DNA from: Caldifarciminota bacterium
GTDB taxonomy: Bacteria; Hydrothermota; Hydrothermia; LBFQ01; DSFT01
Assembly: GCA_026986535.1 (NCBI GenBank)
Contig: JALSOK010000072.1
Coordinates: 1 to 40,918 of the forward strand
Reading direction: 5' to 3'
Length of the DNA: 40,918 nucleotides
How positions within the stretch are numbered: the first letter of the stretch is position 1; the number at the start of each line of letters is the position of its first letter. Positions 9,312 to 12,999 of this stretch are shown here, one piece after another. A program made the translations under genes and the position numbers. The notes beneath the pieces were generated by a model. It searched no databases, had not been told where the DNA came from, and saw only the letters and a list, made by a program, of their open reading frames with translations.

Positions 9312-10412
9312 TCAGTGAGCAGACGGAAACTCTATTCTGAAATGGGTATAACCCCTTCTGGATTCAACCAGATATACCCCTGCATCGTGCATGCGAAGGA
9401 TTCGCTCCACCAGTATGAGCCCGATACCCCATCCCCCCTCCTTGGTGGTTCTGCTCTCCACGAATAGATGGCGCTTCACTTCCTCCGGAACCCCCCTTCC
9501 GTAATCTATAATGTCAACGATACACTTTCCATCCTCCGTCCGAATCTTTATCTCCATCCTTCCACCATCCCCCATCCGGGCTTCGAAGGCATTCTTTATG
9601 AAATTCTCGAATACCCACACCAGGAGTTCCTCATCCCCCCTCACCCTGCAATTTCCCTCCACATCGACCCTGAACTTCCCCCGAATCCGGAATCCCAGGA
9701 ACCGAATGGCCCTTTCCACAGCCCTCCTCAGCTCCACCTCCCGCATGGACAAACTGCTTCCTATCTTGGAAAAGCGCCTCAGTATGGCATTGATCCTCTC
9801 CATATCCTCCGAAATTCGCTCGAGAACATCTTCCCCATCCGGGCATATTCGCCTCAGCCTCTCCATATAAGCATTGATGGAGGTTATGGGATTTCCCAGC
9901 TGATGGGCAAGGCCCTTCGCAAATATGTTCCAGAAGCGCTCCGACTCGTACCTAACTGCCCCCCTTATGGAGAAGAAAGCGAGGATAAAGGTGAGAAAAA
10001 CGATGATCAACAGGGCAATGGGCAGGAGCGTCAGGTACACAATGGAGCGGGGCTCTCCGAAGTACATGCGCCCGATGTAGAAGTCCTGATAGTATATGTC
10101 TATAAAGTTGCCCTTTTTCTCCAGTTCCTTCAATTTGCCTTCGATAAAGCTCCTGTGAGGGGGATATCCCCTCACATACCTGATTCTCCCCCTGTCATCC
10201 GTCAGTATTATGGGAAACTCGATGTAATTCATGAGGGTATCCAGCTGTGGAGAGCCGGATATGAGCATCTCAGTAATGCTCCTTGCAAGGGCATCGGTGT
10301 ACTTGCGGATATCGGCCCTTATGTGGGAGATGGCCATGCTGGAGAGGACATATGAAATTATGACGATGAGGGCAAAACTAAGAGAAAGAATGATTTCGGT
10401 CCGTATCCTCAT
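9312..10412 (-). CDS. sensor histidine kinase
   Basis: TM N-terminus, H-box AKGLAHQLGNPITSINAYMERL, N-box WVFENFIKNAFEA, G-boxes DYGRGVPEE / GGWGIGLILVERI. Confidence 0.9.
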   Translation of the reverse strand: MRIRTEIILSLSFALIVIISYVLSSMAISHIRADIRKYTDALARSITEMLISGSPQLDTLMNYIEFPIILTDDRGRIRYVRGYPPHRSFIEGKLKELEKKGNFIDIYYQDFYIGRMYFGEPRSIVYLTLLPIALLIIVFLTFILAFFSIRGAVRYESERFWNIFAKGLAHQLGNPITSINAYMERLRRICPDGEDVLERISEDMERINAILRRFSKIGSSLSMREVELRRAVERAIRFLGFRIRGKFRVDVEGNCRVRGDEELLVWVFENFIKNAFEARMGDGGRMEIKIRTEDGKCIVDIIDYGRGVPEEVKRHLFVESRTTKEGGWGIGLILVERILRMHDAGVYLVESRRGYTHFRIEFPSAH

Positions 10413-11173
10413 TACTTCTTTTTCTTCTCCAGGAAGCGGCGAAGTCGCTCCCTCGCATCCTGCGTTGCTCTGGCCCGGGCTATGATCTCCGCGCTATAGG
10501 ATAGAAGCTCCTCATCTGCGATGGTCCTGAGTCTTATGAGCAATTCTTTCGTGAGCCTCAGAGCCTGCCTTCCGGCAGAACGGAGAGCGGATATTATATC
10601 TTCCACTTTTTCGTCCAGCTCCTGAATACTGGAAACCAGGTCATGCACCAGTCCAATTTCCTTCGCCACCTTTCCATCGAAAATTTCCCCCGTCAGAAAA
10701 TATCTGCGGGCATTCGAATAGCCCACCTTTCGGACGGCAAATGTCGATATAACAGCCGGGACCAGTCCCAGGCCCACTTCTGTCCATCCGAATCTTGTAT
10801 CCCCGGTAGCCACCACTATATCGGAGACCGCCACCAGACCCATCCCCCCACCGATGGCCGCCCCATGAACCCGGGAGACTACAGGGACTGGAGCTGTATC
10901 TATCAGCTCGAACATGCGGGCCATCCTGAGGGAACTCCGATAATTCTCCTGAAAATCGGCCTCCCCCATCCGCCTCATCCACTCAAGGTCCGCACCGGCG
11001 GAGAAAACCCTGCCGTTTCCCCCCATCAACACGCAGCACACATCTTCGGGAATGCCGGAGAAGACTTCAATGAGTTCCTCTATCATGGTCTCATCGAAAG
11101 CGTTGCGCTTTTCGGGGCGGTTCAGAGTAATCCGGAGAACACCGTCAGTAATTTCGGTGCTGAGGGTCTTCAA
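10412..11173 (-). CDS. enoyl-CoA hydratase/isomerase family protein, TTG start
   Basis: ITLNRPEKRNAFDETM...GGNGRVFSAGADLEWM...VHGAAIGGGMGLVAVSD: crotonase fold. Confidence 0.92.
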   Translation of the reverse strand: MKTLSTEITDGVLRITLNRPEKRNAFDETMIEELIEVFSGIPEDVCCVLMGGNGRVFSAGADLEWMRRMGEADFQENYRSSLRMARMFELIDTAPVPVVSRVHGAAIGGGMGLVAVSDIVVATGDTRFGWTEVGLGLVPAVISTFAVRKVGYSNARRYFLTGEIFDGKVAKEIGLVHDLVSSIQELDEKVEDIISALRSAGRQALRLTKELLIRLRTIADEELLSYSAEIIARARATQDARERLRRFLEKKKK

Positions 11174-11246
11174 TGGGCCGGCTGGGACTCGAACCCAGGA
11201 CCCCCGGATTAAAAATCCGGTGCTCTGCCTGCTGAGCTACCGGCCC
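11174..11246 (-). tRNA. tRNA-Lys (anticodon TTT)
   Basis: GGGCCGGTAGCTCAGCAGGCAGAGCACCGGATTTTTAATCCGGGGGTCCTGGGTTCGAGTCCCAGCCGGCCCA; full cloverleaf, no encoded CCA. Confidence 0.97.
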
Positions 11247-11279
11247 GAGCGTATGGACGAAAATTATACAGTTTATAAG

Positions 11280-12353
11280 CTACAGCAGTTTCCCGAACCT
11301 GACAACCGCCACGACGGTATCCCCCCTCTGATCAATGTAGAAGTTCCATCCGTGAAAATCCGCAATGAACTTGACAGTCTTTATACCGGTTCCCTCGTCT
11401 CCCATGTAGTTTCCCCTGTTCTTGATGGACAGCATGCCACTGCGCAGCGTGATCTCTATCGTGGAGCCCCTTGGAGAGTAGCGGATGGCATTGTCCAGCA
11501 GGTTGAGGAGCAAACGGCGCAGCATGTACTTATTGGCCTTTACCCTCACATCGCTCAGCTCGAGCTTCACATTTATGTCCTTGGCCCTGAGGTTGGCGGA
11601 GAATACGCGAAGGATATGCTCAACCTCATCTTTCACATTTACATCCTCCAGGGTCCTCTGCTCATCGTACAGGGACTTGAAGGAAAGGGTTATCTCGTCC
11701 ATATATCTCAGAGCATCTTTTATGGACTGGCGGACCTCCGGTCTTATGCTGTCATCATCCAGATTCAGCATGATTACCGACAGAGGTATCCTCAGGTCGT
11801 GATGGAACTTCCGGACGAGCTGGGAGAGATAACGGTGCCTGTCTATGAGGGTCCGGGTCAGAAATGTGGATATATCCCTTGCAATGGAATACACTATCAG
11901 GAGCAGGAGAATGTCCAGGAAGATGAAAATCCTGTAAATCTTCTTCAGCCTTCCCCCGAGGAACTCCCCGAAGGAATCCCCCACGGTAATGAACAGGTAG
12001 GGCTTGAACTTCTCGAACTTGAAGAACTTCACCGTGATGAAAACCGTATCCCCATAGTGCCGGATGCCCTCCTCCTTTATATCCGGAATGGAAAAATTCC
12101 TCACCAGGACAGTATCGGGGGTATAAATGGCAAACATGAATGTACTGCTGAGATTTCCGGGGTCCTTCTCCAGCTCCATCTGGTTGAGGAGGGCGATGAT
12201 TTCCCCCTGCATCCTGTAGAGAAATTCCGAATACAGGCGTCCCCTGTAATTGAAAAGGTATATGGCCTCCACAAGCACCACTATTCCCATTATGAAGGCA
12301 GTAATCAGCAGGGAGAGGCGATTTACGGTTCTTCTAAGTTCCCTCTCAAACAT
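11280..12353 (-). CDS. sensor histidine kinase
   Basis: Two TM segments, H-box RKFHHDLRIPLSVIMLNLD, N-box RRLLLNLLDNAIRYSPRG, GTGIKTVKFIADFHGW. Confidence 0.9.
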   Translation of the reverse strand: MFERELRRTVNRLSLLITAFIMGIVVLVEAIYLFNYRGRLYSEFLYRMQGEIIALLNQMELEKDPGNLSSTFMFAIYTPDTVLVRNFSIPDIKEEGIRHYGDTVFITVKFFKFEKFKPYLFITVGDSFGEFLGGRLKKIYRIFIFLDILLLLIVYSIARDISTFLTRTLIDRHRYLSQLVRKFHHDLRIPLSVIMLNLDDDSIRPEVRQSIKDALRYMDEITLSFKSLYDEQRTLEDVNVKDEVEHILRVFSANLRAKDINVKLELSDVRVKANKYMLRRLLLNLLDNAIRYSPRGSTIEITLRSGMLSIKNRGNYMGDEGTGIKTVKFIADFHGWNFYIDQRGDTVVAVVRFGKLL

Positions 12354-12999
12354 CCAGCATGTACCCCGAGCGCTTCCTGCTCTTTATAGCATCCTTTCCG
12401 AGTATATTCCTCAGCCTTACAATGTAAACCCTGATGGCGTTATCGTAATTCTGGGGAAGCTCAGAACCCCATATATACCTGGCCAGCTCTTCCTTAGAAA
12501 CAAACCTGCCCCTGTCCATGATGAGCCTTTCCAGAAGCCGCAGTTCATTGTTCTGCAATTCATATTCCTTTCCATCGGGTCCAACGATGATACCGCTTTC
12601 CCTGAGCAAACGATATTCTCCAAGATTTACCACCTCCGCCTTTCCCACCCTCCGCATGAGGGCTTCGATTCGTGCAAGCAACTCCTCCATATCGAAGGGT
12701 TTGGTTAGAAAATCATCCGCTCCCCTGTCGAATCCCTTGAGTTTATTCTGCAGATCCGTAAGAGCGCTTATTATGATAACGGGTACCGCATGCTCCTTAC
12801 GGATTTCCCTCAGGATTTCGAATCCATCCACATACGGTAGCATCAAATCCAGGAGTATTATATCGTAATCGCCGGGATCCCCCATTTCCTTCACACTGTG
12901 GAATAGACTGACCCTGTGCCCCCTCTCCTCCAGCTTCCTCTTCAGAATCTCGCCGAAAACAGCATCATCCTCTATGATCATTATGCGGTACATGGACAT
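12346..12999 (-). CDS. OmpR/PhoB-type response regulator
   Basis: MYRIMIIEDDAVFGEILK...DIILLDLMLPYVDGFEILR...; winged-helix C-terminus NAIRVYIVRLRNILG. MYR (12993) may be the real start. Confidence 0.95.
   Translation of the reverse strand: MSMYRIMIIEDDAVFGEILKRKLEERGHRVSLFHSVKEMGDPGDYDIILLDLMLPYVDGFEILREIRKEHAVPVIIISALTDLQNKLKGFDRGADDFLTKPFDMEELLARIEALMRRVGKAEVVNLGEYRLLRESGIIVGPDGKEYELQNNELRLLERLIMDRGRFVSKEELARYIWGSELPQNYDNAIRVYIVRLRNILGKDAIKSRKRSGYMLDV

Follow-up and report, generated by a model that had tools for sequence, protein, structure and literature searches.

A zero-gap tRNA-Lys/crotonase junction in a Caldifarciminota bacterium points to tRNA 3′ processing as a possible source of leaderless mRNAs

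The window, by which we mean the whole 40,918-nucleotide stretch of contig JALSOK010000072.1 analyzed here, carries on its minus strand a tRNA-Lys gene (anticodon UUU; positions 11174 to 11246) and, immediately behind it, a gene for a crotonase/enoyl-CoA hydratase family protein of 253 amino acids (10412 to 11173). The tRNA was detected by ARAGORN and matched Rfam model RF00005 with 74.2 bits; the crotonase open reading frame (ORF) matched Pfam ECH_1 over residues 8 to 252 (E = 1.4 × 10⁻⁴⁵). Pairing in the 7-bp acceptor stem (GGGCCGG/CCGGCCC) identifies the A at 11174 as the discriminator base, and the TTG start codon occupies 11171 to 11173 on the same strand, so the gap between the two genes is 0 nt, as the original prediction had it. 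That prediction also took TTG for the only canonical start, with none in frame in the neighboring part of the tRNA. This holds up to the in-frame stop codon 66 nt upstream of the TTG, inside the tRNA: no ATG, GTG, or TTG lies between that stop and the TTG, which rules out a start within the tRNA. CCA is encoded by none of the three tRNA genes in the window, as had been noted before, and is absent from 44 of the 45 tRNA genes in the genome, tRNA-Trp being the exception.

Downstream, the crotonase stop codon overlaps the ATG of a histidine kinase gene (9312 to 10412, minus strand) in the sequence TAATG, and this gene is the probable next cistron. A second histidine kinase gene lies on the other side, in the region 11280 to 12999, so that the tRNA-crotonase pair is flanked by two of them; the upstream one is accompanied by a response regulator, and the other genome of the genus shows the same order over the length that the contig covers. 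The predicted fold of a tRNA-crotonase precursor is a mixed structure.

A putative −10 box for a tRNA-Lys/crotonase transcription unit, TATAAT, is located at 11263 to 11268 on the minus strand, 16 nt 5′ of the tRNA. The block that contains it, AAACTGTATAATTTTC, is conserved in the other genome of the genus, while the surrounding spacer has diverged. More generally, among 42 tRNA genes of the genome, 34 have a TANNNT located 5 to 30 nt before them. A generic sigma-70 scan returned no promoter-like site between tRNA-Lys and crotonase, where a separate promoter would have contradicted the original prediction; the same scan also misses the tRNA promoter. The 17 nt 5′ of the TTG read GAGTCCCAGCCGGCCCA and contain no TANNNT. 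No Shine-Dalgarno (SD) motif was found in the 3′ arm of the tRNA, and the junction leaves no space for a leader between the tRNA and the crotonase.

Conservation of this arrangement was assessed in the window's genome (G000), the only other genome of its genus (G001), and two genomes from another genus of the same family (G002 and G003). In G001, the gene order, an identical tRNA, the zero gap, the TTG start, and the TAATG overlap are all retained, with crotonase genes that are only 77% identical at the DNA level. Over the first 90 nt of the crotonase, differences between the two genomes fall 4, 3, and 16 times at codon positions 1, 2, and 3, respectively, a pattern indicating that protein-coding constraint begins right at the junction. 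Conservation of the junction among relatives, which had been proposed as a check, is thus observed within the genus but does not extend to G002 and G003. There, the crotonase orthologue is not adjacent to a tRNA and has TAAAAT approximately 8 to 9 nt before its start, which by its sequence looks like an ordinary leaderless promoter. Several orthologues from the sister family likewise carry a −10-like hexamer approximately 8 nt before the ATG. Comparison of these orthologues suggests that the leaderless promoter of the crotonase was exchanged for a tRNA in the genus of G000 and G001. A single in-frame TGA falls within the matched part of the G003 orthologue (L007, G003:C93); since the match extends as far as the natural stop, this TGA may be just the terminal codon.

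Leaderless-type promoters appear to be common in the host. Among 84 long ORFs in the G000 stretches examined, there were 25 matches to TANNNT ending 4 to 10 nt before the first in-frame ATG (a few ORFs count twice), against a background of approximately 7% per internal ATG. The enrichment at first ATGs is about fivefold (p = 1 × 10⁻⁸). Expressed as a proportion, roughly 30% of first ATGs have such a box 4 to 10 nt upstream. SD-like motifs, on the other hand, are not enriched (18% before first ATGs versus 19% before internal ATGs). The other three crotonase paralogues of G000 all have a −10-like box directly before the ATG. This −10 layout matches the leaderless promoter layout demonstrated experimentally in Deinococcus (PMC12340547), and on these sequence patterns the host appears to be a bacterium rich in leaderless genes that lies outside the known cases in Deinococcus and actinobacteria.

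The genomes of this lineage are fragmented, and the recurrence of short gaps was surveyed at tRNA-flanking loci in G000, G001, G002, G005 (from the sister family within the order), G018 (from a different order of the class), and, as a control, a betaproteobacterium, by counting ORFs of at least 60 amino acids that start 0 to 10 nt after the discriminator. Antisense ORFs starting from the tRNA 5′ side served as a mirror control. Such ORFs follow 20 of 41 tRNAs in G002 (mirror control, 0 of 41; p = 4 × 10⁻⁸), 17 of 36 in G005 (mirror, 4), 7 of 42 in G000 (mirror, 5), 5 of 33 in G001 (mirror, 1), 3 of 36 in G018 (mirror, 3), and 1 of 26 in the betaproteobacterium (mirror, 2). With a minimum length of 80 amino acids, the G005 counts are 16 of 36 versus 1 of 36 (p = 2 × 10⁻⁵). 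The raw count in G000 is not above its mirror control (7 versus 5; p = 0.38); support for short gaps within this genome comes instead from gap lengths that are equal in G000 and G001 at five tRNAs, namely, Lys (0 nt), Leu-CAG (1 nt), Leu-UAA (1 nt), Gly-UCC (4 nt), and Ile (10 nt). Two of these loci (both on L107, G000:C2) have TTG starts conserved in G001: tRNA-Leu CAG precedes a DUF354 protein of 337 amino acids, and tRNA-Leu UAA precedes a DUF4321-like protein of 84 amino acids, with a gap of 3 nt in G002. Two short-gap candidates were set aside: the ORF with a TTG start behind tRNA-Cys of G018 is false, extending into the following tRNA, and for the ORF behind tRNA-Cys of G000, the true start probably lies downstream of the ATG at gap 9.

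The proteins encoded behind tRNAs are genuine, and most give profile matches that start at or near residue 1, including HMG-CoA lyase and a GIY-YIG protein (both gap 0), DUF354, NuoH, and GcvPA (gap 1), and MurA, nucleoside-diphosphate kinase (NDK), and ribosomal protein L31 (gap 2). For GatC (gap 0), the profile match begins at residue 16. In the sister family, tRNA-Lys (UUU) is followed by murA with a TTG start and a gap of 0, 2, or 3 nt in all seven genomes with a readable junction (G004, G005, G006, G008, G009, G010, and G011, of which G004 and G008 are near-identical there). Elsewhere in the class, other orders have either a gap of 13 to 43 nt behind tRNA-Lys or no gene there. Judged from these genome sequences, short gaps appear to characterize the window's order. 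The genes involved form a mixed housekeeping set across the lineage, which looks like promoter sharing. Given this functional mixture and the separation of the crotonase from tRNAs in G002 and G003, regulation specific to lysine or to the crotonase was rejected, and the proposed coupling of tRNA maturation to this metabolic enzyme found no support.

Start codon usage at the junctions follows the composition of tRNA trailers. In G000, the trailers of 34 of 45 tRNAs begin with TT (19) or CTT (15), and none of the 45 begins with A or G. In half of the G000 trailers, a C occupies position 74 but the remainder of CCA does not follow. Each of the seven zero-gap starts is TTG, and ATG is the more frequent start only at gaps of 3 nt or more. 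If a trailer must begin with U, a flush start has to be UUG; the simplest idea is that the (C)UU trailer reflects a preference of the 3′ endonuclease. Counting against a leaderless UUG start, this codon is weak in that role where it has been measured; in P. acnes, it makes up 3% of the leaderless starts (PMC3848588).

From the layout of the junction, its conservation, its recurrence, and the leaderless context of the host, we infer the following model. A promoter just upstream of tRNA-Lys (TATAAT, 11268 to 11263) would drive a tRNA-Lys/crotonase/histidine kinase precursor, in which the tRNA would fold and lose its 5′ leader to RNase P. An endonuclease would then cut after the discriminator, or about one base later, freeing the tRNA for CCA addition and leaving an mRNA that starts with UUG and would be translated as a leaderless mRNA. 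Across the order, tRNA processing would in the same way set the mRNA 5′ ends of genes located 0 to 10 nt behind tRNAs. We assign a probability of roughly 0.66 to this reading, in which one tRNA promoter, a tRNA-mRNA precursor, and 3′ cleavage yield a leaderless or nearly leaderless mRNA, as a bacterial form of mitochondrial tRNA punctuation. Of the processing scheme first put forward, the release of an mRNA from a tRNA-mRNA transcript is favored by the conserved junction, the leaderless-type host, and the many independent short-gap junctions in relatives; its assignment of the cut to RNase Z and its coupling to metabolism are not.

With regard to the enzyme, no protein in G000 to G003 reaches the cutoff of TIGR02651 for RNase Z, and no canonical RNase Z was found in these four genomes, G005, or G018, even though CCA is missing from nearly every tRNA gene. 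In five genomes, the proteins matching PF12706 appear to be UPF0173-like, beta-CASP, or other metallo-beta-lactamases, assignments based partly on reading of the sequences. An ELAC-like candidate exists in some genomes only. In G000, it is a 229-amino-acid metallo-beta-lactamase of ELAC/Apyc1/PhnP-like type (L117:3168-3857, G000:C134), which scores 46 bits against TIGR02651, where the cutoff is 293. Measured against the RNase Z motifs HxHxDH, AxDx, HEAT-HST, and PxKxRN (PMC9181182), it has HxHxDH and AxD, carries HE(V/F)G and HTP where HEAT and HST would be expected, and shows no PxKxRN. By curated score and motif set, it therefore does not qualify as an RNase Z. Its AlphaFold model has a pLDDT of 88, and the best Foldseek matches in the PDB are Apyc1, PhnP-type, and ELAC-like proteins, with the RNase Z enzymes of B. 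subtilis and T. maritima ranking lower. Similar proteins were detected only in G000, G001, G004, G006, and G008, and none was found in G002 or G005, where the short-gap pattern is strongest. This protein is a candidate for either a tRNA 3′ nuclease or a nucleotide phosphodiesterase.

Exonucleolytic maturation of tRNA 3′ ends occurs in other bacteria, and a precursor lacking a precise cut could have either of two fates: exonucleases would degrade the mRNA while trimming up to the discriminator, or translation would begin on uncut RNA at the UUG beside the acceptor stem. In both cases, the flush junction would reflect only compact promoter sharing. The failure to recognize RNase Z in this lineage fits such an arrangement, as does the exonucleolytic 3′ maturation described in passages of PMC4681348. 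However, with the start codon directly against a folded acceptor stem, the ribosome has no loading space on uncut RNA, and trimming would ruin the mRNAs of essential genes (murA, ndk, and that for L31) that sit behind tRNAs. We regard this explanation as unlikely, though it deserves some weight.

Two further explanations were weighed. The junction could be a nonfunctional product of chance adjacency in a compact genome, or of a misplaced start, as the counts from G000 alone would allow. At the level of the lineage, the mirror control and the conserved gaps largely refute chance, which the G000 raw counts do not: the five equal gaps in G001 and the strong enrichment in G002 and G005 speak against it, and the substitutions of coding type from codon 2 onward, together with the lack of another canonical start, speak against misplacement. 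This leaves chance or misannotation with little probability. Slightly less probable still is expression of the crotonase from a separate promoter located within the tRNA gene, after the manner of other leaderless G000 genes. Boxes of the −10 type 4 to 10 nt before starts are indeed widely used in this genome, but the stretch before the TTG has no such box, the promoter scan is negative there, and the constraint on the tRNA sequence leaves no freedom to form a promoter.

Beyond the preferred reading of release from a tRNA-mRNA precursor, a broader proposal is that this free-living order uses tRNA genes as genome-wide processing signals. Up to half of these genes would make the leaderless 5′ ends of housekeeping mRNAs, with UUG starts shaped by the trailer and an unrecognized endonuclease replacing RNase Z. 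We advance this tentatively, at somewhat under even odds. If true, tRNA maturation would join transcription initiation as a systematic route to leaderless mRNAs. Two questions become testable: the way in which ribosomes initiate on a 5′-monophosphate UUG, and the identity of the enzyme that matures CCA-less tRNAs where no RNase Z can be recognized. In addition, gene finders that disfavor TTG or tRNA-adjacent starts would misplace many starts in this group.

No published description of flush tRNA-start junctions in bacteria was found in the open-access literature, although several known systems share individual features. In P. acnes, tRNA 3′ cuts are made without an obvious tRNase Z and many mRNAs are leaderless, according to passages of PMC3848588; unlike in G000, CCA is encoded in roughly half of the tRNA genes, and these passages mention no flush tRNA-start junctions. 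Tko-sR44 of Thermococcus kodakarensis, a C/D-box RNA that shares a transcript with tRNA-Arg and is probably cut free by RNase Z (PMC4247193), is likewise an RNA located 3′ of a tRNA, but it is noncoding and archaeal. The leaderless mRNAs of Deinococcus, mycobacteria, and P. acnes start at or within a few nucleotides of the 5′ end, and TANNNT before ORFs, common in G000, is shared as well (PMC12340547). In contrast to those promoter-made transcripts, 5′ ends at tRNA junctions would arise by processing, would carry a monophosphate, and have no promoter before the ORF. In mitochondrial tRNA punctuation, RNase P and RNase Z/ELAC2 excise the tRNAs, and the cut after the discriminator leaves a 5′ phosphate on the downstream RNA (PMC9181182). 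The present case differs in that the chromosome is bacterial and has many separate promoters, in that just some of the genes are involved, mostly at the mRNA 5′ side, and in that the cleavage is predicted and no canonical RNase Z was found in the genomes checked. It resembles the opisthokont mitochondrial version in that protein starts lie at or near tRNA 3′ ends, CCA is not encoded, and leaderless or nearly leaderless mRNAs are proposed to result from tRNA excision; if the model is true, this order would hold a bacterial counterpart of mitochondrial tRNA punctuation.
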